Origin: Deltaproteobacteria bacterium
Lineage (GTDB): Bacteria; Desulfobacterota; Desulfomonilia; UBA1062
Direction of reading: 5' to 3'
DNA length: 40,528 nt
Assembly: GCA_011046135.1 (NCBI GenBank)
Contig: DSBG01000157.1
Coordinates: 1-40,528 of the forward strand
The position numbers were made by a program, and so were the translations under genes. Shown here in pieces: positions 581 through 14,406 of the stretch. How positions within the stretch are numbered: the stretch's first letter is position 1; each line of letters opens with the position of its first letter. The notes beneath the pieces were generated by a model, which saw only the letters and a program-made list of their open reading frames with translations, had not been told where the DNA came from and made no database searches.

Positions 581-2380
581 ATGGGATATTCTGAAAAAAA
601 CGTCGCGGGAATTTTTCATAACAGAGCAGATCAGTATCAGTATGAGCCCTTCTTGAGGTTCAAAAAACAGGGCACGTATACCCCCATCAGCTGGAAAGAA
701 ATGCAGAACATGGTGATCAAAACCGGGTTGGGGCTCATGTCCCTGGGTGTCAAACAGAACGATCTGGTATCGATCTTTTCCGAGAACTGCTGGCAGTGGG
801 TCGTGGCAGATCTTGCCGTCCTGTCCATCGGCGCTTCAGATGTCCCCATCTATGCAACGAATTCAGGTTCTGAGGCAGCATACATCATCAACGACTCCAC
901 CGCAAACGTTGTCTTTGTTTCCGACGCAGACCACCTTGAACGACTCCTGAGCGTCAGAAAACAGATGAACAATCTCCAGCACATCATCAGCTTCGATCCC
1001 GTAACCACAGAGGATCCGACGATTATCCACATCGATCGACTCATGCAGATCGGAGAAGAATTCAAGGACAAAACCCTCTTCGAAACGAGGCTTCAGCAGA
1101 TCAAAGAAGATGATCTTGCAACGCTCATCTACACCTCGGGGACAACCGGTCAGCCCAAAGGGGTGATGCTCACCCATGCAAACTTTGTTGCAAACGTCAT
1201 GCAGTGCTATGCTTCACATCCCATCATCGATCACAGGGACACGTCCCTTGCCCTGCTGCCATGGAGCCATTCTCTTGGCAGAACGGTGTCTCTCTACCTC
1301 ATGATACACATCGGTGCAGTCATCAATCTTGCCGAGAATTTCTCCACGGTCCTGCAGAACATGCAGGAAGTTCGGCCAACCCTGGTCGTGAGTGTCCCGA
1401 GGCTCTTCGAGAAAATCCACGCCGGTGTTCTCTCTCAAGTCCAGAAGGCCCCGGCAATGAAGAAACGGCTGTTCGATTGGGCAATGAGTGTTGCAGACAG
1501 GGCCGTTGATTACCGTGTCCAGAACAGGAATCTCCCCGCCGTCCTCAAGATCCAGTACGACCTCGCGGAGATGCTCGTGTACTCAAAACTGAGGGGAGCC
1601 CTCGGCATGGACAGGATCAGAATATTCATCAGCGGAGGCGGTGCAATTGCCGTGGAGATCGATCGTTTCTTCAACTCCATAGGGGTACCGGTTCACAACG
1701 GCTACGGTCTCACCGAAACCAGTCCGGTTACCAATGTGAACAAATTCGATGCGTTCGAATTCGGGTCAGTTGGCCCTGCACTTCCCGACACGCAGATTGC
1801 CATTGCACAGGATGGGGAGATTCTCATCAAGGGACCCCAGGTCATGAAGGGCTATTTCAATAAACCTCAGGAGACGGCATCGAGTTTTACCGATGACGGT
1901 TGGTTCATGACCGGGGACATCGGCAGAATCGATGAGCAGGGGTGTTTGTTCATCACTGATCGGAAGAAAGATATCATTGTCACGTCGGGGGGGAAGAACA
2001 TCTCACCGCAGAACATCGAGAACACCCTGGTTTCGGATCTCCTTATAGAGCAGGCCGTGATCATCGGGGAGGGAAAGAAATTCCTCAGCTCACTGATTGT
2101 CCCGAACTTCGCCGAACTGAAGAACTACGCCAAAGAACAGGGTCTCTCCTTTGATACTCACGAGGATCTTATCAAGAAACCCGAAATCGTGAGGCTGTAT
2201 GAGGAGAAAATCACGCTCCTCATGAAGGAATACGCACGGGTGGAACAGATTCGAAAATTCACCCTGTTGCCCAGAGAATTCAGTATCGAGAATGGCGAAC
2301 TTACTCCCACCCTCAAGCTCAAACGAAAGGTCATCAATGAACTCTATAAAGAGAACATTGCAGCCATGTACACCGAATAG
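581..2380 (+). CDS. Long-chain fatty acid--CoA ligase (AMP-forming)
   Basis: Adenylate-forming enzyme of 599 residues, expected to activate a fatty acid with ATP to an acyl-AMP and then an acyl-CoA thioester. The AMP-binding P-loop signature YTSGTTGQPKG is at about residues 184-194. Further on are the GYGLTETSP motif, the hinge-region TGDIG and the DRKKDIIVTSGGKNISP motif typical of FadD/FACS-type ligases. The length fits bacterial long-chain ligases, which run to about 600. The start at 581 is chosen because GGAGG lies 5 bases upstream; the frame stays open to 425 but that part does not look like the family. A strong terminator follows the stop, so the gene is probably transcribed alone. Substrate chain length cannot be read from the sequence; other acyl or aryl acids remain possible. 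Confidence 0.92.
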   Translation: MGYSEKNVAGIFHNRADQYQYEPFLRFKKQGTYTPISWKEMQNMVIKTGLGLMSLGVKQNDLVSIFSENCWQWVVADLAVLSIGASDVPIYATNSGSEAAYIINDSTANVVFVSDADHLERLLSVRKQMNNLQHIISFDPVTTEDPTIIHIDRLMQIGEEFKDKTLFETRLQQIKEDDLATLIYTSGTTGQPKGVMLTHANFVANVMQCYASHPIIDHRDTSLALLPWSHSLGRTVSLYLMIHIGAVINLAENFSTVLQNMQEVRPTLVVSVPRLFEKIHAGVLSQVQKAPAMKKRLFDWAMSVADRAVDYRVQNRNLPAVLKIQYDLAEMLVYSKLRGALGMDRIRIFISGGGAIAVEIDRFFNSIGVPVHNGYGLTETSPVTNVNKFDAFEFGSVGPALPDTQIAIAQDGEILIKGPQVMKGYFNKPQETASSFTDDGWFMTGDIGRIDEQGCLFITDRKKDIIVTSGGKNISPQNIENTLVSDLLIEQAVIIGEGKKFLSSLIVPNFAELKNYAKEQGLSFDTHEDLIKKPEIVRLYEEKITLLMKEYARVEQIRKFTLLPREFSIENGELTPTLKLKRKVINELYKENIAAMYTE

Positions 2381-2387
2381 CGTACAC

Positions 2388-2426
2388 CGGGCAGGGGGCT
2401 CTCTCCCCCTGCCCGAATAAATTTCT
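2388..2426 (+). terminator. Rho-independent terminator after acyl-CoA ligase
   Basis: A perfect 11-bp GC-rich stem (2388-2398 with 2405-2415, arm CGGGCAGGGGG) closes a 6-base loop. It is followed by an A/T-rich tail including ATTTCTTT. It begins 7 bases after the acyl-CoA ligase stop and separates that gene from nrdD. Confidence 0.85.
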
Positions 2427-2444
2427 TTCCACATCACTTTTTAC

Positions 2445-2474
2445 TTGCATTCCCGGGTTATTGTCCTATATATA
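2445..2474 (+). promoter_or_regulatory. Probable nrdD promoter overlapping the first NrdR box
   Basis: TTGCAT at 2445-2450 is followed after 16 to 18 bases by TATATA at 2467-2474. This gives a plausible sigma-70-type promoter whose -10 element lies inside the upstream NrdR box. Repressor binding there would be expected to exclude RNA polymerase. Confidence 0.5.
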
Positions 2475-2509
2475 GTACTTTGTTTGCCGATTACCACCAT
2501 ATATAGTAC
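2463..2509. promoter_or_regulatory. Pair of NrdR boxes upstream of nrdD
   Basis: Two copies of ATATATAGTAC lie at 2468-2478 and 2499-2509, exactly 31 bp apart (three helical turns). In 16-bp register they cover 2463-2478 and 2494-2509. They match the core of the known NrdR consensus (acaCwATATaTwGtgt) in the central C/TATATATAGT part, with weaker outer bases. Paired boxes at this spacing are the hallmark of NrdR, the ATP/dATP-sensing repressor of ribonucleotide reductase genes. nrdR itself is not in the window. The nrdD start codon is 15 bases after the second box. Confidence 0.85.
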
Positions 2510-2523
2510 ATTGGGAGGGTGTT

Positions 2524-4737
2524 ATGTTTTCTAAGATAATCAAGCGGGATGGAAGGTATGCCACGTTCGATGCCTCAAAGATAACCTTAGCAATAGCCAA
2601 GGCCGGCAAGGCCACCGTCGAGTTCGATGAACTCGTCGCTCACAGGCTCACGCTCAAGGTCCTTGCGATTGCAGGGCAAGCAATAACGGATATTCCCACC
2701 GTTGAGGAGATCCAGGATATCGTCGAGGAAATCCTCCTTTCTTCACCCTACCGGAAAACAGCCAAGGCGTATATCATCTACCGCGATCAGCATGCAAAAA
2801 TCCGGGAAATCAAAGCTGGGATCGGAGTGGACCTCATCGATCAGTACCTGGGAAAACTTGACTGGCAGGTAAATGAGAACAGCAACATGGCCTTCTCTCT
2901 CCAGGGGCTGAACAACTATCTCTCTTCAGAAATCAGCAAAATCTACTGGCTCAACAAGATCTATCCGCCGGAAGTACGGGATTCCCATTCGGAAGGGGAC
3001 TTCCATATCCACGATTTGAACATTATTTCTGTCTACTGCGTGGGGTGGGATCTCTATGACCTCCTGGTCCAGGGATTCAAGGGGGCAGCAGGGAAGGTGG
3101 AGAGCCGTCCGGCACGTCACTTTCGAACAGCCCTTGGCCAGATCGTGAATTTTTTCTACACCCTCCAGGGAGAGGCAGCGGGGGCCCAGGCCTTCTCGAA
3201 TTTTGACACCCTGCTCGCACCGTTCATCAGGTATGACAATCTGGATTACACCCAGGTGAAACAGGCTCTCCAGGAATTCATCTTCAACATCAATGTTCCC
3301 ACCCGGGTTGGTTTTCAGACCCCGTTCACCAATGTAACCCTGGACCTCGAGGTGCCTTCCTATCTGGCAAATCAGCCCGTGATCATCGGTGGAAAGCCGC
3401 AGAACACAACCTACGGGGAATTCCAGGAAGAAATGGAGATCTTCAACAAGGCCTTTGTCGAGGTGATGGCGGCCGGGGACGCGAAGGGTCGCGTATTCAC
3501 GTTTCCGATCCCGACGTACAACATCACGAAGGACTTCAACTGGGACAACGAACATCTGACACACCTGTGGGAAATGACCGCCAAGTATGGGGTCCCGTAT
3601 TTTTCCAACTTCATCAATTCGGACATGGACCCGGAAGATGCACGGAGCATGTGCTGCAGGCTCAGGATTGACAATCGCGAACTCACACTCAGAGGAGGAG
3701 GGCTCTTCGGATCGAATCCTCTGACTGGGTCCATCGGAGTCGTCACGATCAATCTCCCGAGAATCGGCTATTTGAGCAAGGACAGAAAGGAGTTTCTCTC
3801 CCGGCTGGAAAAGCTCATCGATATCGCATCCAACAGTCTCGAGATAAAACGCAAAGTTCTGGAGAGCTTTACCGACAACAACCTCTACCCCTACACCAAA
3901 CACTACCTTTCCGGGATCAAGCAACGGTTCGGTGAATACTGGAAGAACCACTTTTCCACCATCGGTATTCTGGGGATGAACGAGGCGTGCATGAACCTCA
4001 TCGGTACCGATATCGCGAATGAACGCGGGAGAGAATTTGCCCTCATGGTGAGCGATTTCATCAGGGGAAAGCTCCTCGAGCTCCAGGAGAAGACCGGAAA
4101 CAACTATAACTTTGAAGCGACGCCTGCCGAGGGAACCTCCTACAGAATGGCACGGATCGACAAGAACAGGTATCCGGACATCGTGTGCGCCAACGAGGCA
4201 TCCTACCGTGAAGGTCACGAACCCTACTACACGAATTCAACTCAGCTGCCAGTCAATTACACCGATGATATTTTCGAGGCGCTGGATCTCCAGGATGAGA
4301 TCCAGGCAAAATACACCGGCGGTACGGTCTTCCACATCTTTGCGGGGGAGCGTGTGGATGACCCTGAAGTGATCAAGACCTTGGTGAGAAAGATCTGCCT
4401 CTCCTACAAGATGCCGTACTTCACCTTCAGCCCGACCTTCAGCGTCTGTCCAAGCCATGGGTATCTCTCCGGAAACAAGGATTCCTGCCCGACATGCGGT
4501 GAAGCCACGGAGGTCTACTCCCGGGTGGTGGGGTACCTCAGGCCGATAGCCCAGTGGAACAACGGTAAACAGGAGGAGTTTATCAACAGGAAGTCTTTCA
4601 AAATGGCATCCGAGGAAACGAAACAGGAAACCCTCTCCAGTCAGCTCTTTCCCCCTGATCGCACGGCAGAGTGTTCCAGTGAAGGGTCCTTCCACGAAAA
4701 ACCCGAACACAAAGAGCAGTCGGCCAGATCGGTATAG
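2524..4737 (+). CDS. nrdD: Anaerobic (class III) ribonucleoside-triphosphate reductase
   Basis: Glycyl-radical enzyme of 737 residues that reduces ribonucleotides to deoxyribonucleotides under anoxic conditions. Residues 1 to about 95 form an ATP-cone allosteric domain (KIIKRDGR start, SSPYRKTAKAYIIYR end). The catalytic barrel contains the RSMCCRLRIDNREL stretch. The C-terminal zinc site is C642-P-S-H645 with C655 and C658, and the radical glycine is G670 in RVVGYL. The start follows GGGAGGG at a good distance and two NrdR boxes. About 45 polar residues follow the usual end of the glycyl-radical domain (after INRKSF); this tail looks unstructured and family-atypical. The activase gene nrdG lies about 760 bp downstream with a reverse-strand gene between them. 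Confidence 0.97.
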   Translation: MFSKIIKRDGRYATFDASKITLAIAKAGKATVEFDELVAHRLTLKVLAIAGQAITDIPTVEEIQDIVEEILLSSPYRKTAKAYIIYRDQHAKIREIKAGIGVDLIDQYLGKLDWQVNENSNMAFSLQGLNNYLSSEISKIYWLNKIYPPEVRDSHSEGDFHIHDLNIISVYCVGWDLYDLLVQGFKGAAGKVESRPARHFRTALGQIVNFFYTLQGEAAGAQAFSNFDTLLAPFIRYDNLDYTQVKQALQEFIFNINVPTRVGFQTPFTNVTLDLEVPSYLANQPVIIGGKPQNTTYGEFQEEMEIFNKAFVEVMAAGDAKGRVFTFPIPTYNITKDFNWDNEHLTHLWEMTAKYGVPYFSNFINSDMDPEDARSMCCRLRIDNRELTLRGGGLFGSNPLTGSIGVVTINLPRIGYLSKDRKEFLSRLEKLIDIASNSLEIKRKVLESFTDNNLYPYTKHYLSGIKQRFGEYWKNHFSTIGILGMNEACMNLIGTDIANERGREFALMVSDFIRGKLLELQEKTGNNYNFEATPAEGTSYRMARIDKNRYPDIVCANEASYREGHEPYYTNSTQLPVNYTDDIFEALDLQDEIQAKYTGGTVFHIFAGERVDDPEVIKTLVRKICLSYKMPYFTFSPTFSVCPSHGYLSGNKDSCPTCGEATEVYSRVVGYLRPIAQWNNGKQEEFINRKSFKMASEETKQETLSSQLFPPDRTAECSSEGSFHEKPEHKEQSARSV

Positions 4738-4811
4738 GGGGAGAATGACACAGGGGCAGGGCGTGCTGCGGTACAGGTGTTCAGAAAACGCACCTGGAGT
4801 GTGCTCGCACG

Positions 4812-5198
4812 TTAGTCCTTCCTCAGCGCGCGATCGAGCACTTCGCGCAACTCCTCCAGCTTGAAAGGCTTCCGTACGACTCCGCTGAACCCATATGCGG
4901 AACAATCGGTCATGACTGGATCGTTTGAATATCCGCTGGAGACGAGTGCTGTTATGCCCGGATCTATTCCCATAAGCTCCTTGATGGCTTCTTTCCCACC
5001 CATACCGCCAGGGATGCTGAGGTCCATAATGATCGCGTCGTACGGAGATCCAGCCTGTTGTGCCTCTGCATACATCTCTATGGCTTCGGTTCCGTCTGAA
5101 GCGAGATCAACGTCATAATTCAGAAAATCGAGCATGCTGCTAACCACATCCCTGATGATTTCTTCGTCGTCCATAACAAGTATACGACCTATCGCCAT
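4812..5198 (-). CDS. Single-domain response regulator (CheY-like receiver)
   Basis: A 128-residue stand-alone receiver domain with no output domain. The acidic pair is D10-D11 (VMDDEE), the predicted phospho-acceptor is D59 (IIMDLSIPGG), and the conserved KPF lysine is near residue 110. The start at 5198 is chosen because AGGAGG lies about 9 bases upstream; the frame is open further upstream but without a site. It resembles the C-terminal receiver domains of the two hybrid kinases encoded on the same strand at 6307-10631, so it may be the diffusible end point of the same phosphorelay (inference). It sits between nrdD and nrdG on the opposite strand. Its output partner is unknown. Confidence 0.88.
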   Translation of the reverse strand: MAIGRILVMDDEEIIRDVVSSMLDFLNYDVDLASDGTEAIEMYAEAQQAGSPYDAIIMDLSIPGGMGGKEAIKELMGIDPGITALVSSGYSNDPVMTDCSAYGFSGVVRKPFKLEELREVLDRALRKD

Positions 5199-5270
5199 TG
5201 TGACAGCTCCTCCTGCGTTCGATATGATGTCCTTCAAAGGCTCCTTCGTCTCCTGGGAGGGAAATCTTGA

Positions 5271-5420
5271 ATGTATGGAGGAGATTATCCCGTGACAGAC
5301 GTTGTGACCCGTTCCCTGTATGTCCATGTCAACGGCACGTTGCCCGGGGACGTGGCAGAGATGAGACTTCCGTTGCTGAGTTCACGATCCGGGATTCTCC
5401 ATCATGGGGTAAGAGGATGA
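5271..5420 (+). CDS. Possible small protein (49 aa), unknown
   Basis: A short frame starts at ATG 5271, preceded by GGGAGGG about 9 bases upstream, and ends at TGA 5418-5420. A second in-frame start (GTG 5292) also has a GGAGGAG site. The product begins MYGGDYPVTDVV and ends GILHHGVRG; no known motif, signal peptide or membrane segment is apparent. It lies upstream of nrdG on the same strand. Support is only the ribosome-binding site and the otherwise empty gap, so it may be spurious. Confidence 0.3.
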   Translation: MYGGDYPVTDVVTRSLYVHVNGTLPGDVAEMRLPLLSSRSGILHHGVRG

Positions 5421-5425
5421 ACTAT

Positions 5426-5454
5426 TTGACAACAGATTCAGAATTGTTCATTCT
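5426..5454 (+). promoter_or_regulatory. Possible nrdG promoter
   Basis: TTGACA at 5426-5431 is a perfect -35. The base 17 further on begins CATTCT, a weak -10 with 3 of 6 matches. It would place the transcript start about 40 bases before nrdG. A promoter here would explain how nrdG is expressed despite the reverse-strand gene separating it from nrdD. Confidence 0.25.
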
Positions 5455-5499
5455 TCACTCCATGAGTTTCGTGATCAAGCTGGCATGGGGACAGGAGAG

Positions 5500-6189
5500 A
5501 TGAAGATTGCCCATGTTCAAAAAACCTCCTTCATCGATTATCCCGGTAAGATCAGTGCCGTCATCTTCACCCGGGGATGCAATTTCAGATGTCCCTACTG
5601 TCACAATCCTGAACTGGTGGACCCGGCTCGATTTACCCCGCTTATTGTGAAGGAGGAAGTGCTCTCTTTCCTGGAGAAACGCAGAGGAAAACTCGACGGT
5701 GTTGTCATCACAGGGGGTGAGCCTCTGCTTCAGGACGGTCTGCTGGAATTTTTACGGCGCATAAAATCAAAAGGATTTCAGGTGAAGCTCGACACAAACG
5801 GTTCTCGACCGCGACAGCTCCGTGAGGCAATTAGGTTGTCTCTGGTCGATTTTATTGCCATGGACATCAAGGCTCCCCTTGAACGCTATTACCAGATTGC
5901 AGGGTCCCTTGTGAACGTGAGCGAAATAAGATCCAGCATCGAACTCATCATGGGCTCTTCTCTGCCCCATGAATTCAGGACAACCATTGCGAGATCTCTC
6001 CTGTCACCGGACGACATCGTGCAGATTGCAAAGATGATACGGGGCGCCTCACAGTACGTGCTGCAGAAATTTGTGCCGTCAAAACATGTGGATCCATCCT
6101 TTCTGTCTGAAAAATCCTTCACTCAGGAGGAGATCGAACTCATCCTCGATCAGATCAGACCCATGGTGGATCGCTGCAGTGCCCGGTGA
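5500..6189 (+). CDS. nrdG: Anaerobic ribonucleoside-triphosphate reductase activating protein (radical SAM)
   Basis: Radical-SAM activase of 229 residues that installs the glycyl radical on NrdD using S-adenosylmethionine and a [4Fe-4S] cluster. The cluster ligands form C27-NFR-C31-PY-C34, preceded by QKTSFIDYPGKI, which is typical of the NrdG-like activase family that pairs with ATP-cone NrdD. The glycine-rich VVITGGEPLL motif follows at about residue 70. ATG 5500 is chosen because the protein then begins MKIAHVQKTS as in relatives. AGGAG at 5493-5497 is unusually close, and ATG 5485 five codons earlier has no site at all. Its partner nrdD is encoded upstream on the same strand. Confidence 0.93.
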   Translation: MKIAHVQKTSFIDYPGKISAVIFTRGCNFRCPYCHNPELVDPARFTPLIVKEEVLSFLEKRRGKLDGVVITGGEPLLQDGLLEFLRRIKSKGFQVKLDTNGSRPRQLREAIRLSLVDFIAMDIKAPLERYYQIAGSLVNVSEIRSSIELIMGSSLPHEFRTTIARSLLSPDDIVQIAKMIRGASQYVLQKFVPSKHVDPSFLSEKSFTQEEIELILDQIRPMVDRCSAR

Positions 6190-6243
6190 TAGGTTCAGGA
6201 GAAGGATCACTGGTGCCTGCGTTTTCTTTTCTGCTGCGGGTAG

Positions 6244-6266
6244 CCGGTGTGGGGAACACCGGGTTT
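6244..6266. terminator. Possible terminator between nrdG and the hybrid kinase
   Basis: A 7-bp stem (CCGGTGT 6244-6250 with ACACCGG 6256-6262) closes a 5-base GGGGA loop between two convergent genes. The following GTTTC is a poor U-tract, so termination activity is uncertain. No other hairpin stands out in this gap. Confidence 0.35.
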
Positions 6267-6306
6267 CACGTAATACGTTTAAGCGTCTCCCTGCTTGTAC
6301 AAACCG

Positions 6307-8235
6307 TCAGTTCTGGAGCAGCGTGTGAACTTTTTCAAGCAGCTCTCCGGGAAGAAACGGTTTCTGCAGAAACACAACGTCTCCGATTTCAGAACGTTTG
6401 ATCGTTTCTTCCCCGTACCCTGACATGAACATCACCTTGACATGGGGCCAGAGTGAAAGCATCTTTTTCGAGAGCATCTTCCCGTCTATTCTCCGCATGA
6501 CCATGTCCGTGATCAGGAGATCGATTCTTCCATCGTGTTGTCTCGCCAACTGAAGAGCATCCCCTCCATTACAGGCTGTCAGGGTTATGTGCCCTTCCTG
6601 TCTGAGGATTTCACTGACCAGCTCGCGAACCGTATCGTCGTCTTCCACTACAAGGATGGTCTTGGCCTCCGGCAACAATTCCCGGACCACGTTCTCCGTA
6701 GTTGTTTTCACAGTGACCTGCTTTTCTGGTGCCGTGGCAAGGGGAAGGAACATCCTGAAGCATGAACCCGTTTCAGGAGTTCTCTCTACTATGAGGGTAC
6801 CACCGCAGGATTTGATGATGTTTCTCACTGTCCACAACCCCAGGGTCTTCCCAGAACGGTTCTCAGAGAGGAAGGGATCAAAGACCTGCTCGATCATCTC
6901 TTCCGACATGCCTTTACCTGTATGCTTGAGGGAAACGAGGACATACGTGCCAGGTGATACTGAGGAATACTGCTGAGAGTTCGAAGGACCGATGGTGATC
7001 AGTTCGGATGTGATGGTAACTTCTCCCTGATCCATGGATTCTTTTGCGTGCATGGCGAGATTGATGAGGATGCTGTCGAAGCTTTGTAAATCAATGTTCA
7101 CCAAGCTCTCCTCGGGGCATAGGGAGATGGTTAGCCGGTTGGGTTCACCGATGAGGTGCATGAGAATGGGTTCCTGGTTCATCAGTTCAGCATTGATATC
7201 CAACTCCGTGGTTTCTTTTCTGAATTTTTTGCTGAAATCAAGGAGTTTCTGGGTGAGACGAGAAGCCTGGTTCCCGGCCTGGTGAATCTGGTTTATCTTG
7301 GAAAACAGGGGAGTGTTCTCATCCATGGATACCTTGATGATCTCGGAGTATCCGTTGATTACCGTAAGCAAGTTATTGAAGTCATGGGCAAACCCTCCGG
7401 CAAGCTGACCGATGGTATCGATCGTCGCGTTCTGCAAGAGATGCTGCTCCTGAATCTTCTGGTCGATCATGTCCATGGCCTGGTACTGGAAAGACACAAC
7501 AGCATCGTCCACGATGATGGGTCTTCCGCTGACGAGCAGGTACTTGATTTTTCCGTCCCCCGTGATCATACGGATATCATAGGAGACCTCCCGCTTTTCC
7601 AGCATGCTCTTTTTCCACAACGACACGACCTTGCCCCGGTCGTCTTTATGGACAAACTCCAGGATGTTCCTCCCCTTGAGCGTTTCAGGGGTGTACTGGT
7701 CGCCGAAGAACAGCTCGATGGCCTTGTTGTTGATCAGGGTGATGAACCCGTGTGCATCAGTGACTGCGGACATGGCGGATGCATTCTCGAACAGTTCCTG
7801 AAAAAAAACCTTTTCTCTTTCTGTTGTGCCGTGAGTGCTCACCGGGGTGGAGATATCAATTTGCAGGCAGCAGACAGCACGAACAGACCCACCGTGTATG
7901 ATGGGAAAGCGTGAAGCGAGGAAATGGTTCTTCTCAGAATCATCATGAAGGGTGTTTTCATGGAAAGCCTGCGTGCCTTGTTCTTCACGAACGACCACGG
8001 CGTCACTTTCTTCCCGCTGCACGGAATGTTCATCACGGAACAACTCGGTGTCACGACGCCGAAGTATTGCTTCAAGCGATTCAGCCCCGATTGAGTCAAG
8101 ATGCCGCTGGTTTGCCCACAGGTAGCGAAGATCTCTGTCTTTCACGTAGATGATCGCGCCCGGACAATCGAAGATTTCCCTCACTCCTTTTTCACTCTCA
8201 GTACAGGGTACATCGATAAGATGCTTCCGGGTCAT
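6307..8235 (-). CDS. PAS hybrid sensor histidine kinase with degenerate ATP-binding domain
   Basis: Cytoplasmic hybrid kinase of 642 residues with no membrane segment. Order: PAS-like (about 15-130), PAS (145-260), HisKA dimerisation with H284 in GFAHDFNNLL, HATPase-like (380-502) and a receiver (525-640) with phospho-acceptor D577 and K625. The catalytic domain is eroded. The N-box reads LINLAMHAKESM, with His where the Mg-binding Asn belongs (residue 396). G1 reads KHTGKGM, with His for the adenine-binding Asp (438). G2 reads GKTLGLWTV instead of GTGLGLS. ATP binding is therefore doubtful while the phospho-accepting His and Asp are kept, so it may act as a phosphatase or phosphotransfer partner (inference). 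The start at 8235 follows AAGAAGG at 7 bases. It lies 140 bases downstream of the intact kinase at 8376-10631. Confidence 0.9.
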   Translation of the reverse strand: MTRKHLIDVPCTESEKGVREIFDCPGAIIYVKDRDLRYLWANQRHLDSIGAESLEAILRRRDTELFRDEHSVQREESDAVVVREEQGTQAFHENTLHDDSEKNHFLASRFPIIHGGSVRAVCCLQIDISTPVSTHGTTEREKVFFQELFENASAMSAVTDAHGFITLINNKAIELFFGDQYTPETLKGRNILEFVHKDDRGKVVSLWKKSMLEKREVSYDIRMITGDGKIKYLLVSGRPIIVDDAVVSFQYQAMDMIDQKIQEQHLLQNATIDTIGQLAGGFAHDFNNLLTVINGYSEIIKVSMDENTPLFSKINQIHQAGNQASRLTQKLLDFSKKFRKETTELDINAELMNQEPILMHLIGEPNRLTISLCPEESLVNIDLQSFDSILINLAMHAKESMDQGEVTITSELITIGPSNSQQYSSVSPGTYVLVSLKHTGKGMSEEMIEQVFDPFLSENRSGKTLGLWTVRNIIKSCGGTLIVERTPETGSCFRMFLPLATAPEKQVTVKTTTENVVRELLPEAKTILVVEDDDTVRELVSEILRQEGHITLTACNGGDALQLARQHDGRIDLLITDMVMRRIDGKMLSKKMLSLWPHVKVMFMSGYGEETIKRSEIGDVVFLQKPFLPGELLEKVHTLLQN

Positions 8236-8375
8236 GTCTGTGCCTTCTTTCGCCAAGCCCAATACAGCAGGTGCGGCTCAGATACTGCCAGTTGTATCGG
8301 CATCGCTTCTCCCGAATATGAGCTTGGTGCACAGCGTTGAGAAAGACATCGAGATTCCATCCTGTATGTCACCAT

Positions 8376-10631
8376 CTAGGAGAGAGCATCCTCCAGCACT
8401 TCGGAGAGCTCTTTCATGTTGAACGGTTTGTTGAGCTTTGCGATAATGAGCGGGTTGGCAAGGATGTCTCCCTGTTCATGTTCGAAGGAATACCCCGACG
8501 AAATGATCACTTTTGTAGTGATGTTCTGCTTCTGCATTTCCTGTAGGGTGTGATACCCGTCGAGATCGGGCATGATCATGTCCAGAATAACCAGGTCAAA
8601 CCTCTTTGAATCTTTCGAGAGGACTTCGATGCACTCTCTGCCGTTTGAGACGGTTTCAACGGAATGCCCCAGGAGGTTGAGCATCTCTTTTCCGATCTCC
8701 CTGAGCATGTCTTCATCATCCACGATCAGGATACGAGCAGATTGTTTCGAAAGGGAATGTTTGATCCGATCATCGGGAGAAAGCGAGGCATGTTTCTGCC
8801 CTGAGACAGGAATGAGCACGCTGAAGATCGTCCCCCTGCCTTCCTCGGACTGTACGTGAATGCTTCCCCCAGCGTTTTTCACGATATTGTAGGCTATGGA
8901 GAGCCCGAGACCCGTTCCTTTGACCGTTCCCTTTTGCTTGGTGGTAAAGAACGGATTGAATACCTTCGAGAGAATCTCATCATTCATACCGCAGCCATTG
9001 TCTCGAATATCTATCTTGACATACTTGCCCAGAGAACCGAGGAGGTACTGTCGTTTGGAATTTTTGTCCGCGACAAAGGAACTGATGTCGATGGATATAG
9101 TTCCGTCCTGCTTGTTGCCGATGGCATCTTTTGCATTAACCACGAGGTTCAGGAACACCTGGGTAAGGTGAGTCCGATCCAGAAACACGATGTGCTCTCT
9201 GCTGTCTCCGGTAATTTCCATCCTGATATGCTTGGGGAAGGATTTGGACGTCATATCCAAGACATCATGGAGCACCTCTTTTATGGGTATGTGCGAAGGT
9301 CTGCCTTCGTGCCTCTTGGTGAAAACGAGCATCTGCTGGATGAGATCCCGGGCCCTGTCAGTGATATTTTCGAGGGTTTGGATATAGTGCTGCTGTTTCG
9401 TTGCATCCTTGGTGTATTTCAGCATGGAGATATTACCGGAAAGACCGGTGAGAATGTTGTTGAAATCATGGGCAACTCCTCCTGCAAGTTCCCCGATGGT
9501 CTCCATCTTCTGGGCATGGATAAGTTGAAGTTCCATGTTTTTCTTTTCCGTGATATCGACGGCGGTGAAGACCACCCCACCGTGTGCGGGATTCATGAGT
9601 GGATAGATGCTGATATCAAAGAACCGGGGCGATTTCTGCGAGAGGGTCTGTTCATGGAGGAACTGTGGGGATCGCTCAGTCTGAACATCCTGAATCAGTT
9701 TCTCAAGGGAGGCCATCTGGGGACTGAGTCCGGATATCTCCTGGCCGATGATCGACGAAACCGGGACCTGAAAAATACGCTCTGTTATTGGATTGGCCAT
9801 GACGACCTTTCCCGATCTGTCCAGACAGATGACCAGATTGGGACTTGACTCAAAGACGCTCGAAAGATAATTCTTGAGGTCTTCAATGGTCTGCTGTGCG
9901 AGTATCAGTTCTGAGATCTCCTGGGCATTGTACTGCACCTCGACGATTTTTCTCTTCTTTTTAATAGCACTGCCGCTGGCAAGGAGATAAAATTCTTTTC
10001 CCTGGCGTGATACTGCCTTTATTTCAAACCGTGGGGTCTGTCCTTCGAGAATTCTCTTCCAGAAATCGATATAGGTCGAACGATCATCAGGGTGGGCGAT
10101 CATAAGGATACTCTGACCGACGAGTTCTCTCCTTGAGTATCCTGAAATTTCTTCGACTTTTTTATTGAGTCGTTTTATGTAACCGTACGCGTCTGTGGTG
10201 ATAATGAGTTCGTTTGCATTTTCGAACAGGGATTCAAACTGCTCCCTGTTTTCCCTGAGCTGTTCTTCGAGGCGCTTGCGTTTTGTGATGTCCGAGATCA
10301 GTCCACAGAAGCCGACGAGGTTTCCAGAGGAATCCTTGAGAATGCTCACGGAATTATCGATCACCCTGCGGGAGTTGTCCTTGAGAATGATCTCGTATTC
10401 AATTCTCTGGGGTATGCCGGTGACAAAGGCCTTGTTGAATGTTGTATAGAGACGCCGGGCCGTTGCCCTGGTGGTATATTCCGTGAATTTTGTCTTCAGC
10501 ATTTCTTCGCTGGAACGGCAGGCTATCTTACAGGTAATGCTGTTCACATAGGTAACGTTTCCGGAGAGATCCGTTTCGTAATATCCCTCCTTCATGTCCT
10601 CAAAAATCTGCCTGTCTCTGGGAATATTCAT
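8376..10631 (-). CDS. PAS hybrid sensor histidine kinase with receiver domain
   Basis: Soluble hybrid kinase of 751 residues. Three PAS domains cover about 5-115, 130-245 and 255-365. They are followed by HisKA (H388 in GGVAHDFNNIL), HATPase (480-610) and a C-terminal receiver (635-750) with D684 and K735. The ATP-binding motifs are intact: N499 in LNLVVNAKDA, DIRDNGCGM with D544, and GTGLGLS at 572-578. It should therefore autophosphorylate and pass phosphate to its own or another receiver. No membrane segment is visible, so it senses a cytoplasmic signal through PAS. It is probably the first gene of a reverse-strand unit with the degenerate kinase after it. AGGGTG about 8 bases before ATG 10631 is a weak ribosome-binding site. 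It is divergent from moxR. Confidence 0.93.
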   Translation of the reverse strand: MNIPRDRQIFEDMKEGYYETDLSGNVTYVNSITCKIACRSSEEMLKTKFTEYTTRATARRLYTTFNKAFVTGIPQRIEYEIILKDNSRRVIDNSVSILKDSSGNLVGFCGLISDITKRKRLEEQLRENREQFESLFENANELIITTDAYGYIKRLNKKVEEISGYSRRELVGQSILMIAHPDDRSTYIDFWKRILEGQTPRFEIKAVSRQGKEFYLLASGSAIKKKRKIVEVQYNAQEISELILAQQTIEDLKNYLSSVFESSPNLVICLDRSGKVVMANPITERIFQVPVSSIIGQEISGLSPQMASLEKLIQDVQTERSPQFLHEQTLSQKSPRFFDISIYPLMNPAHGGVVFTAVDITEKKNMELQLIHAQKMETIGELAGGVAHDFNNILTGLSGNISMLKYTKDATKQQHYIQTLENITDRARDLIQQMLVFTKRHEGRPSHIPIKEVLHDVLDMTSKSFPKHIRMEITGDSREHIVFLDRTHLTQVFLNLVVNAKDAIGNKQDGTISIDISSFVADKNSKRQYLLGSLGKYVKIDIRDNGCGMNDEILSKVFNPFFTTKQKGTVKGTGLGLSIAYNIVKNAGGSIHVQSEEGRGTIFSVLIPVSGQKHASLSPDDRIKHSLSKQSARILIVDDEDMLREIGKEMLNLLGHSVETVSNGRECIEVLSKDSKRFDLVILDMIMPDLDGYHTLQEMQKQNITTKVIISSGYSFEHEQGDILANPLIIAKLNKPFNMKELSEVLEDALS

Positions 10632-10750
10632 GAAATTACACCCTGCTGCAGTGATCTATCGGAGGTACGAACAAAAAACTTGATGTATCAAAGAAGGACC
10701 CCCTGTGTTATGAACTTCTCATGCAAACCGAATCCTTGGAACGAGTGCCT

Positions 10751-11665
10751 ATGAATATTCATGAGCGAATCGAGACCATCATCAGCCACATGCAGCACGT
10801 GTTTCTGGGACAGGAACACGTGGTCACGTCCATCCTCTGCGCATTTTTTGCCCGGGGACACGTCCTCCTGGAAGGGGTTCCCGGTGTGGGAAAGACCCTC
10901 ATTGCCTTGGCCCTTGCAAAACTGCTGAACCTGAGTTTCAAGCGGATACAGTTCACCAATGATCTTCTTCCCTCTGATGTTACGGGCTTCCATACCTTCA
11001 GGAGCCCGGTGGACTCCATGGACTTGATTAAAGGTCCGCTCTTTGCAAGCATTGTTCTCGCAGACGAAATCAACAGAACCTCTCCCAAGACGCAATCCGC
11101 TCTTCTCGAGGCCATGGAGGAATCCCAGGTCACCATCGACGGGATGACCTATGTTCTGCCGGAGCCCTTCATGGTCATTGCAACGCAGAACCCCATTGAG
11201 GTGACCGGCACCTTTCCCCTGCCTGAAAGCCAGCTTGACAGGTTTCTCATAAAAACGATCGTTGGATATCCACCGGTTGAGAAAGAAGCCGAAATTCTCA
11301 GGAAAGACATCGATCACTCCGACGCCCTTGGCCTGGAGCCGGTCACAGATCGCCATGAGATTCTCCAGCTTCTCGCAAGGGTCAATACGATCATCGTCCA
11401 TCCAGACATCCTCGGCTACATTGGCGCCATTGTCCGGACATCCAGGGCACATCGAGAGATCGAACTCGGGATATCTCCCCGGGGAGGACTCGCCCTGAAA
11501 AGAGCATCCCAGGCATATGCCTTTATCCACGGGAGGGCTTTTGTTACTCCTGGTGATGTGCAAAGTGTCTGCCCGTGGGTGCTTGCTCACAGGATCATCG
11601 TGAAACAGGGAAACGCAGAACGCGTCATCGAGGAGATCCTGAATGAAGTGGAACTTCCTCTATGA
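10751..11665 (+). CDS. MoxR-family AAA+ ATPase
   Basis: AAA+ ATPase of 304 residues in the MoxR group, whose members act as chaperone-like ATPases with DUF58/von Willebrand-type partner proteins. Walker A is GVPGVGKT at 42-49 and Walker B is VLADE with D105-E106. The sensor-1 region ATQNP and FPLPESQLDRF follow, then SPRGGLAL typical of the C-terminal lid. ATG 10751 is preferred (MNIHERIETI) because GGAACGAG precedes it; ATG 10721 is ten codons earlier and lacks a site. It overlaps the DUF58 gene by 23 bases, and the transglutaminase gene follows. This arrangement is a well-known conserved cluster whose exact function is unsettled. Confidence 0.93.
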   Translation: MNIHERIETIISHMQHVFLGQEHVVTSILCAFFARGHVLLEGVPGVGKTLIALALAKLLNLSFKRIQFTNDLLPSDVTGFHTFRSPVDSMDLIKGPLFASIVLADEINRTSPKTQSALLEAMEESQVTIDGMTYVLPEPFMVIATQNPIEVTGTFPLPESQLDRFLIKTIVGYPPVEKEAEILRKDIDHSDALGLEPVTDRHEILQLLARVNTIIVHPDILGYIGAIVRTSRAHREIELGISPRGGLALKRASQAYAFIHGRAFVTPGDVQSVCPWVLAHRIIVKQGNAERVIEEILNEVELPL

Positions 11666-12569
11666 GTACCTGAAGCCTCCCCGGGGATTTCATCTCACAA
11701 AATCGGGCACGCTCTTCTTTGTGTTTTTGCTCGGAATCATTGTTTCAGCCATGATCACCGGGAACAATCTCCTGTTTCTGATCCTTGCCTGCATGCTGTC
11801 ATTCATGATTGTCTCCGGTATCCAGTCCGAGATGAATCTTCGGCACCTCGAGATGGAGCGCAGGCTGCCCGCCGAGATCTATGCACGGAATCCCGCACGC
11901 ATCGGATATGCCATCAGAAACAGGCACAACACCTCATTGCGGCTCGTCATCTCCGACTTCAGAAAACTCAAGGTCCCTCGGCTCACACGGGGGTCCGTCG
12001 AGGTGGTGGAAACAGATGTCGTCTTTCAACGTCGGGGTGCAGTGACTCTGGGAAGCGTGGTAGTCAGCACCACATTCCCCTACGGCCTGTTTGAAAAATC
12101 CATCACCTTTGATCTCACAGAGGAGATCGTGGTCTTTCCGGAACCCATTGAATGGAGCGTTCCCTCCAGATCAGGTAAGGTGGAGCGTGGATCAGGCAGG
12201 GCCACGGACAGCATTTCCCACGTGAGACCCTATCATCGGGGAGATGCCCTCTCGTCCATTGTCTGGAAAAAACAGCATCACGGCCTTATCTCCCGGGTTA
12301 CCGAGGGGGGAGGAGAGAGAGAAAATCTCGTCGTGGTTCTTCCGGGTTCCGACAGGGAGCTCAAGATCGGCAGGGCAACCTACCTCGTCCGGGAGCTTGC
12401 TGCAACGGGACAACGGTTTGGACTGATGGTGAATTCCTACTTCAGCGGCTTGGCAACGGGGAGAACACACAAGATCGATATCCTGAAGCAGCTCGCACAC
12501 CTCGAAACGCTCAACCAGCCAGACCCACGGATAGTTCAGGAACATGGGAACGACTGTACCTACCTCTGA
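11643..12569 (+). CDS. DUF58 domain protein
   Basis: 308-residue membrane-anchored protein. Two hydrophobic segments lie near the N-terminus (about 22-60, with FFVFLLGIIVSAMI and LLFLILACMLSFMIV). A cytoplasmic or periplasmic part follows with the DUF58 signature PYHRGDALSSIVWKKQ at about 194-209. DUF58 proteins are the usual partner of MoxR ATPases. The start is set by GAGGAG 8 bases upstream, inside the end of the moxR gene. The end overlaps the next gene by 26 bases, so translation is probably coupled. No enzymatic activity can be assigned. Confidence 0.9.
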   Translation: MKWNFLYEYLKPPRGFHLTKSGTLFFVFLLGIIVSAMITGNNLLFLILACMLSFMIVSGIQSEMNLRHLEMERRLPAEIYARNPARIGYAIRNRHNTSLRLVISDFRKLKVPRLTRGSVEVVETDVVFQRRGAVTLGSVVVSTTFPYGLFEKSITFDLTEEIVVFPEPIEWSVPSRSGKVERGSGRATDSISHVRPYHRGDALSSIVWKKQHHGLISRVTEGGGERENLVVVLPGSDRELKIGRATYLVRELAATGQRFGLMVNSYFSGLATGRTHKIDILKQLAHLETLNQPDPRIVQEHGNDCTYL

Positions 12570-14406
12570 TAGTTCACTCCATGTCATGCTGCTGTCACTG
12601 TCCGGCGTTCTGTGTCTGTATCTGGCGGAGCTCCTGAGCCTGCCTGCATGTATCGTACTCGTGCTGGTCCACGTGATCATAGGCAAATGGTTCTATACCT
12701 CGACCGTGTTTCCCAAGGCACTGTTTCCCATCCTGATCGTTGCCGTATCTTCCCTCGAGGTTGGTCGAATCATCTTTCAGGGCAGAGAAGGGATTGTTCC
12801 GGCACTGAGGGACATGATCGTGATTCTCGCCCTTACCAGACTGATCATGCCCAAATCGGGCAGAGAGATTGCTCAGCTCGTGGGCATCACCTTTTCCCAG
12901 TGCATCCTTGCAACGATCTTTACCACGAGCCCCTTGTTTCTCATAGGGCTTTTGCTTCAGGCTTTTTTCATCCCCATCGTTCTTGACCAGCTCGATGAGC
13001 GTTCGTTCATGGGACCCGGTGAAACGACCCGATCACGTCCAGGTCGCTGGATCATGGTATGGTCTTCAATCATTGTCATGAGCTGTATTCTCTTCTACCT
13101 CATTCCCCGTCCATCTTCGGCACTCATGCGGGGAGCGCTCGTCCACAGGAGCACCATCGGGTTTTCAGAGGAGATGAACCTCGCACGATCGACCCAGCTC
13201 GAAGAGGACTCCCGCATCGTGATGCGGCTTGTCTGGAATTCGGGAAAGATTCCCGAGGTCGTCTACCTCGCGGGGGCCCGGCTCGAAGAACTCACGGCCG
13301 ATGGTTTCGTGAAGCACGGGGAGACCCTCGCCACGGAGTCAGTGAACGTCAGTCAGGACAGACTCTCCACGGATCACCTCACGATATACCCAACGGGGAT
13401 CGAGACGAAAAACGTTTTTTTCCCCTATTACCTCGTGTCGGTATCACCCGGAGCGACCATCTCTCAGGGATCGAATGTGTACTGGATGAAAGATCCACCA
13501 CCGATGTACGATATCTGGGTAACGAGAAACAGCAGCGACCAGGGAACGCTCATCACGTCTGTACCCGACGAACTTCTGGAGGTTGCCGGCCTGGGAGCCA
13601 CCATCGCCGGACAGGGGACAACAAGGGAGAAAGCATCCAGGATTGCCGAGTACCTGAAGAAACACCACGAGTATACGCTGGATGGGCTGACCATGCCGGT
13701 GGAAGTCTCCCCCATTTCCTGGTTTGTGTTCAATGGTAAGAAGGGAAGCTGCGAACATTTTGCCTCTGCCCTCGCAACGATGCTCCGTGGCTGCGGGATA
13801 CCAACACGGGTGGTTACAGGATTTCTGGTCAACGAATTCAATCCGAGCGGAAACTATTTCATTATCAGGGCGAGAACTGCACACGCGTGGGTGGAATTCT
13901 GGGACAAAAAGTGGTTTCTGCTCGATGCCACGCCGTTTGCTCTTTCAGGGGCCGTCAGGCGCGTGAGCCTGATCGACTCCCTTCGGTTTACCTGGATCAG
14001 GTGGGTCATTCACTACTCTCTTGAAGATCAGATCACCATTGCCGGATACCTCGCGAGATCCCCGTGGAGTGTCCGAGAACGTCTCGAGCTTGTACCCTCT
14101 GCAGCCCTTGCAGGGATACTCCTGATTCCCGTTGTTGTGTTCGCTTCCAAGATGTGGAGGAGGAAACGACTCGGTCCCTACGCAAAAGTGCTGCAGGCCC
14201 TCGAAAAAAAAGGGGTAAGGCTCGATATCTCACAGTCCCATGAAATCCATGTGCAGGAACTGCTTCGACGGAATCCCTCTCTTGGGTCGCTCTTCAGGAA
14301 CTACCTTCAGACCTACCTCCCCTGGAGATTCGGGAACCAGGACGTGGACATCTTCTCGATAACCGAGAATCTCATCGAACGAATACGCGAGAGTTCAGAT
14401 ACCTGA
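12544..14406 (+). CDS. Membrane transglutaminase-like protein (DUF3488 + transglutaminase core)
   Basis: 620-residue TgpA-type protein. The first about 190 residues are a run of hydrophobic segments (DUF3488-like). A soluble region follows with a transglutaminase/cysteine-protease-like core, whose catalytic triad is C403 (GSCEHFASAL), H447 (TAHAWVEFW) and D461 (LLDATP). A further membrane segment lies near 518-540 (ALAGILLIPVVVF) before a short cytoplasmic tail. TgpA from Pseudomonas is an inner-membrane protein with a periplasmic catalytic domain; the same topology is likely here. It is the third gene of the moxR-DUF58-tgpA cluster and starts inside the DUF58 gene. It ends 26 bases from the convergent lipoprotein gene. 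Confidence 0.92.
   Translation: MGTTVPTSDSSLHVMLLSLSGVLCLYLAELLSLPACIVLVLVHVIIGKWFYTSTVFPKALFPILIVAVSSLEVGRIIFQGREGIVPALRDMIVILALTRLIMPKSGREIAQLVGITFSQCILATIFTTSPLFLIGLLLQAFFIPIVLDQLDERSFMGPGETTRSRPGRWIMVWSSIIVMSCILFYLIPRPSSALMRGALVHRSTIGFSEEMNLARSTQLEEDSRIVMRLVWNSGKIPEVVYLAGARLEELTADGFVKHGETLATESVNVSQDRLSTDHLTIYPTGIETKNVFFPYYLVSVSPGATISQGSNVYWMKDPPPMYDIWVTRNSSDQGTLITSVPDELLEVAGLGATIAGQGTTREKASRIAEYLKKHHEYTLDGLTMPVEVSPISWFVFNGKKGSCEHFASALATMLRGCGIPTRVVTGFLVNEFNPSGNYFIIRARTAHAWVEFWDKKWFLLDATPFALSGAVRRVSLIDSLRFTWIRWVIHYSLEDQITIAGYLARSPWSVRERLELVPSAALAGILLIPVVVFASKMWRRKRLGPYAKVLQALEKKGVRLDISQSHEIHVQELLRRNPSLGSLFRNYLQTYLPWRFGNQDVDIFSITENLIERIRESSDT

Follow-up and report, generated by a model that had tools for sequence, protein, structure and literature searches.

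Gene A, a hybrid histidine kinase homologue of a Deltaproteobacteria bacterium, belongs to a lineage that has lost the residues required for ATP binding and kept the parts that carry phosphate; judged by its sequence, the protein probably passes on or removes the phosphate of B, the kinase encoded beside it. Our preferred reading, to which we assign a probability of roughly 0.55, is that A is a pseudokinase derived from a CckA-like hybrid kinase, which acts on the phosphate of B in a RetS- or PhyT-like manner. The window, i.e. the whole stretch of DNA that was analysed, comprises 40,528 nucleotides and stems from a draft assembly of 181 contigs. Gene A starts with the ATG at 8235, which is preceded by the SD-like sequence AAGAAGG; this start and the coordinates given in an earlier inspection of the letters (referred to here as the sequence-only reading) were correct. 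A longer frame opens with a TTG at 8262, from which the residues of A are counted throughout (protein P0001). The layout is PAS-PAS-HisKA-HATPase-REC (Pfam: PAS_4, PAS_9, HisKA, HATPase_c and Response_reg), with the following features:

6307-8235, minus strand: gene A, hybrid histidine kinase homologue whose ATP-binding residues have been lost (open reading frame; 642 aa from the ATG)
7849-8157, minus strand: PAS_4 domain of A, residues 36-138 (Pfam)
7498-7767, minus strand: PAS_9 domain of A, residues 166-255 (Pfam)
7228-7410, minus strand: HisKA/DHp domain of A, residues 285-345, with H293 and H-D-x-x-N (Pfam, alignment)
6736-7074, minus strand: HATPase_c domain of A, residues 397-509, with a degenerate nucleotide site (Pfam, alignment)
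7048-7050, minus strand: N-box Asn of A changed to His405 (CAC; alignment, codon)
6922-6924, minus strand: G1 Asp of A changed to His447 (CAT; alignment, codon)
6832-6852, minus strand: G2 motif of A, GKTLGLW, with Gly473 changed to Thr (alignment, codon)
6328-6657, minus strand: receiver domain of A, residues 536-645, with D586, K634 and F-M-S-G-Y (Pfam, alignment)

In GHKL ATPases, the Asn of the N-box binds Mg, the Asp of G1 binds adenine and the Gly residues of G2 belong to the phosphate loop. A lacks these canonical features (the N-box Asn, the G1 Asp and GxGxG) and carries H405, H447 and T473 instead, the last of these at the middle G2 Gly position and encoded by ACC (6844-6846). The HATPase_c domain still scores 52.2 bits in Pfam against a cut-off of 26.4, and routine annotation would therefore label A an ordinary hybrid kinase and overlook the loss. 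The residues that carry phosphate are present, as the sequence-only reading had stated for the HisKA His, the receiver Asp and the receiver Lys: H293 (CAT), D586 (GAC) and K634 (AAA) are found together with E540, D541 and S614, and the H-box reads H293 D294 F295 N296 N297, i.e. it contains the H-D-x-x-N phosphatase motif. A degenerate HATPase domain together with a kept H-box, the combination by which a pseudokinase is recognized, is thus found in A.

The loss was judged against two sets of kinases. PF02518 matches lie at 33 places in the genome of A itself; the profile scored 29 rows, and among the 24 CA domains in which the N-box, G1 and G2 regions are all aligned, that of A is the only one that lacks both the Asn and the Asp. 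Among 88 distant relatives covering DHp-CA, both residues are kept in all 88 and the middle G2 Gly in 87; these relatives were collected with a search pattern derived from the alignment of A and are biased to similar kinases. Judged against both sets, the ATP-site changes in A exceed chance.

Group A, the orthologues of A, has a single member in each of 21 of the 24 family genomes, its own included (E<=1e-75), and the remaining three lack an orthologue at this threshold. The layout PAS-PAS-HisKA-HATPase-REC and the neighbouring genes are shared as well, and A is a one-to-one orthologue in the family. The H-box His and its +4 Asn are kept in all 21 orthologue rows, with Asp or Glu at +1. D447 and G473 are each kept in 20 of the 21 rows, N405 in 19 (His in A and L006), G449, G451 and G475 in every row, and G471 in 19, with Thr in L020 and L022, both from g6 genomes. 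Because the orthologues mostly keep the canonical Asn, Asp and Gly, the losses of N405, D447 and G473 are, by this alignment, derived in the lineage of A. The sequence-only reading had stated that canonical motifs in orthologues would refute its proposal; the alignment contains such motifs, and they show a derived loss, not activity of A. The Asn-to-His and Asp-to-His changes that it had listed stand, and its third altered motif had to be corrected: the full G2 motif is GKTLGLW, in which only the Gly-to-Thr change at position 473 is private at a conserved site, and the Trp at the G2 Ser position is common to 18 of the 21 orthologues. The stretch from the F-box to G2 measures six residues in nearly all members of group A (eight in L017) and ten in most orthologues of B; in the 88 distant relatives, it measures eight residues in 78 and six in two, the pattern being unmatched in eight. 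The change from Ser to Trp and the short ATP lid are traits of the orthologue group, not decay. Trp following GLGL also occurs outside this group: another kinase of the same genome, L148 (G000:C161), has GSGLGLWQV as its G2 motif.

Several orthologues deviate on their own. L006 (1213-3009) carries an N-box His (CAT) as in A, yet its G1 and G2 motifs are intact. The g6 orthologues L020 (1495-3402) and L022 (1423-2925) have an altered F-box and an altered first G2 Gly (TIGYGLS and TIGSGLS), keep the Asn and the Asp, and have HEFRN as their H-box. The match to A in G012 (L012, 306-1886) crosses one TAG near its N-terminal end, the remaining frame being open. In a tree of 21 rows, calculated with the motif columns removed, L021 as outgroup and L022 left out, A (L001) lies beside five rows that form a clade (94/92) and from which L006 splits off first; two gains of the N-box His and one gain with one loss are equally costly on this tree. 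None of the compared genomes is a same-genus relative of the source genome, and the three losses together are known from one genome. A contig scan returned no group A orthologue among the best 80 of 589 matches, which are generic kinases with at most 39% identity over DHp-CA in the aligned part, and no relative of A was found among viral contigs.

The N-box His of L006, which occurs there beside intact G1 and G2 motifs, would suit a weak but active kinase, in which the His residues of the N-box and G1 tolerate the nucleotide, perhaps in combination with another metal or another nucleotide. The fold preserved in the predicted structure (see below) and the other Gly residues kept in G1 and G2 are consistent with such an enzyme. 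However, three sites of separate role have been lost together in A, and a missing Asn or Asp occurs in none of the 88 relatives and in no other CA domain of the same genome (n=24); we therefore regard a weak kinase as improbable.

Selective constraint was counted on 19 orthologue rows, with L020, L021 and L022 left out. Among the columns invariant in these rows, A is changed at none of 21 in DHp, none of 45 in REC, three of 20 in CA and one of eight in PAS, whereas at variable columns it departs from the commonest residue in 47% (DHp), 49% (REC), 60% (CA) and 44% (PAS) of cases; its branch length is about 0.75 changes per column. The three CA changes at invariant columns are D447H, G473T and V483I, the last of which is conservative and lies outside any motif. 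At the variable-column rate, the chance of observing 0/66 changes in DHp and REC is about 1.8e-19, a rough figure which, on this alignment, excludes long neglect of A and leaves room only for a very recent release from selection. This constraint on DHp and REC speaks against a pseudogene and favours a selected pseudokinase; the part of A that stays under selection is the phosphate path. The receiver of A (6328-6657) has the most invariant columns of any group A domain, and an invariant M-R-R-I-D-G stretch follows the phospho-Asp in group A receivers.

Two other explanations for the changed residues bear on these counts. If kinase function had become dispensable, the losses could be early steps towards a pseudogene; A indeed evolves faster than B (49% and 66% identity, respectively, to the G007 orthologues), the CA domain has more changes than any other and three family genomes lack an orthologue at the threshold given above. 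However, the frame of 642 aa is open, the codon-position GC content (0.547/0.346/0.626 for A, 0.507/0.334/0.607 for B) follows the pattern of a working gene, and the count of 0/66 could be reconciled with decay only after a very recent release from selection, which makes a decaying gene quite improbable. Errors of assembly or sequencing, for which the draft state of the assembly might speak, are hardly credible as the source of the three changes: there is no frameshift or stop, the changes lie at the ATP site and spare the invariant DHp and REC columns, no Gly codon could become the ACC of T473 with fewer than two base changes, and the neighbouring genes are normal. The sequence-only reading had dismissed errors as well. 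Its proposal of a pseudokinase, which may serve as a phosphatase, a phosphotransfer module or a regulator of its neighbour, gains support as far as the loss of kinase function and the preserved phosphotransfer residues are concerned: the losses are private or nearly private, and the invariant DHp and REC columns are unchanged.

Two further arguments were considered and dropped. In a scaled-tree comparison, the CA domain of A is accelerated (2dlnL 9.97); however, shifts of similar size were found in lineages with intact motifs (10.69 in L012, 7.64 in L010 and 6.4 in L011), and in L019 the CA domain is slower than expected (2dlnL 13.35). Because the acceleration is not unique to A, the case for a pseudokinase rests on the identity of the lost residues, not on rate. 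An enrichment of private CA changes in the ATP motifs (2/3 at invariant columns) involves too few changes to be used.

The predicted structure of A points to an ordinary kinase core. An AlphaFold model of DHp-CA, based on 70 sequences, has a mean pLDDT of 86.3 (87.7 for a control model of B); within its CA domain, for which an ordinary kinase CA fold is predicted with high confidence, block means are mostly 86-98, and the weak lid reaches 59. By sequence, the nearest solved chain to DHp-CA of A is CckA 5idj (E 4.5e-27), which is also the top fold match listed, with Z 21.8 and an rmsd of 15.5 over 230 positions, a high value that presumably reflects domain orientation. The CA domain of A alone matches CckA 5idm_B with Z 21.6 and an rmsd of 3.9 (166 aligned), and the best sequence match of B is likewise 5idj (E 4.1e-33). 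Because many other kinases fall within a few Z units, the modelled fold places A as a HisKA-type kinase core and no finer; ChpT and Spo0B are absent among the 50 fold matches listed, which does not count against a likeness to either. CckA of Caulobacter has the layout PAS-PAS-DHp-CA-REC, as found in A, and is the closest solved relative of both halves of A, with about 30% identity. The best match of the receiver is 6tne (E 4.9e-18, the next being 7.9e-13), which we take to be the CckA receiver, although the entry is listed as a histidine kinase. CckA-type intermediary receivers are reported to have an FxSGY motif (PMC9981736), which the F-M-S-G-Y of A fits; its first position is often Leu in other orthologues. 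Unlike A, which lacks the Asn, the Asp and the Gly, CckA is active as a bifunctional kinase, and its structure 5idj contains bound ADP/Mg; A was not assigned as CckA, since its receiver motif is present but its ATP site is lost.

Gene A is embedded in a conserved gene neighbourhood, which contains the following features:

2524-4737, plus strand: nrdD, anaerobic ribonucleoside-triphosphate reductase (NCBIfam)
4812-5198, minus strand: stand-alone receiver, conserved between nrdD and nrdG (Pfam, neighbourhood, alignment)
5485-6189, plus strand: NrdG2, nrdG-type anaerobic ribonucleotide reductase activase (NCBIfam)
8376-10631, minus strand: gene B, hybrid kinase rich in PAS domains, in which H, N, G1, G2 and REC are all intact (Pfam, alignment)

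NrdD and NrdG2 were both named by NCBIfam above cut-off. In 14 of the 20 other genomes, nrdD, the stand-alone receiver, nrdG, A and B are all present in this order and with the same orientations: nrdD and nrdG share one strand, and the receiver, A and B lie on the opposite one. Four of the remaining six loci (L120, L121, L125 and L130) stop at contig edges, the 3 kb that remain past A in L126 contain no nrdG, and the 18 kb stretch of L129 carries A and B but lacks nrdDG. B adjoins A in 19 of the 20 other genomes, and in the 20th (L125), A lies at the contig start. All 19 rows of B, including the copy beside A, have canonical residues at every ATP site; the sequence-only reading had rightly described that copy as intact in every motif. 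The stand-alone receiver keeps the acidic pair, the Asp, Ser-Ser-Gly-Tyr-Ser and the Lys in all 15 aligned sequences and matches the receiver of B at 32%, with no match to the receiver of A in the same comparison. Between 2524 and 10631, nrdD and nrdG on the plus strand alternate with the receiver, A and B on the minus strand, which would allow two interleaved transcription units; six terminator-like sites were found in 2300-11000 against a chance expectation of 7.9, and all six lie outside the intergenic gaps of this set. Beyond B (10721-14406), three genes keep their place in most relatives, the first having weak AAA/chelatase-type matches and the next two no NCBIfam match. Literature searches on pseudokinases and on nrdDG with two-component systems yielded no publication on the nrdDG-A-B locus.

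From gene adjacency, we infer that A and B are partners and in which direction phosphate flows between them. With the Mg, adenine and phosphate contacts gone, A would be unable to load ATP and hence to autophosphorylate. Its receiver could accept phosphate from the His of B, and its DHp domain could dephosphorylate, or take phosphate from, the receiver of B or the stand-alone receiver, which is a candidate third member beside A and B. Alternatively, A and B could form a HisKA heterodimer, in which the CA domain of B phosphorylates H293 and thereby feeds the receiver of A, making A a net donor. H293 is kept in all orthologue rows, B is a nearly constant neighbour, and paralogous heterodimers of ChrS and HrrS, one of them a pseudokinase, have been reported (PMC9491836). 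However, A and B are only about 28% identical over DHp-CA, and canonical orthologues of A adjoin B too, which means that the pairing is older than the loss. We therefore favour an action of A on the phosphate of B and place trans-phosphorylation by B second, as a rather unlikely reading.

Several systems with degenerate kinases offer models for such an action. The closest characterized example is RetS of Pseudomonas aeruginosa, which combines a degenerate HATPase domain with HExxT; its REC receives phosphate from GacS, and RetS also dephosphorylates the GacS REC and blocks GacS autophosphorylation (PMC5992135). A likewise combines a degenerate HATPase domain with a kept H-box phosphatase motif and a receiver, and its model matches the RetS core (6dk7_H) with Z 18.8 and an rmsd of 2.7 (210 aligned). 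However, the G-boxes of RetS are missing as a whole and it has more than one REC (REC2), whereas A shows point losses and one REC; RetS acts on another hybrid kinase, GacS, and B is the proposed counterpart for A. PhyT, in which a degenerate ATPase is combined with HRxxN, takes up phosphate from a single-domain receiver and passes it on (PMC5898713); it acts on SdrG/PhyR. ChpT binds no ATP in crystals (PMC3433190). PhyT, ChpT and Spo0B resemble A in having a DHp domain with a kept His and a CA domain without a kinase role. Phosphotransferases of this type pass phosphate from one receiver via the DHp His to another, and the stand-alone receiver, conserved nearby in most of the other genomes, is a candidate phosphotransfer partner of A. 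PhyT, ChpT and Spo0B are not known to have a C-terminal REC, whereas A keeps PAS and REC. The CA domain of ChpT is remodelled with its ATP pocket closed; in the model of A, the CA fold is that of an ordinary kinase and the lid is of low confidence. DivL has lost catalysis, has a regulatory function in a pathway that involves a hybrid kinase and binds TNP-ATP weakly (PMC4211667), and by analogy residual nucleotide binding by A may be conceivable. DivL (4q20_B) matches the model of A with Z 19.8 and an rmsd of 5.8 (218 aligned), but Tyr replaces its His and it is reported to show no kinase or phosphatase activity, whereas A keeps the His.

Taken together, A is probably one more case of the conversion of a kinase to a pseudokinase, a kind of change that is already known. 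A more speculative and rather doubtful extension is that B, A and the stand-alone receiver form a conserved, undescribed three-protein relay, which is interleaved with the genes of the anaerobic ribonucleotide reductase and regulates them, and in which A would be turning from kinase to phosphatase or phosphotransferase in separate lineages, namely in its own species (N, D and G2), in L006 (N-box His) and in g6 (F-box and first G2 Gly). If this were true, living species would show successive stages of an HPt-like protein evolving from a kinase. Conversion of this kind is known from a few fixed cases, i.e. RetS, DivL, ChpT, Spo0B and PhyT; the loss in A arose inside a one-to-one orthologue group which mostly keeps the ATP site, and beside the same partner B. 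Since the orthologues that keep the ATP site and the one that lacks it share the same syntenic position, seemingly active and seemingly inactive versions of A offer an unusually clear, direct comparison.
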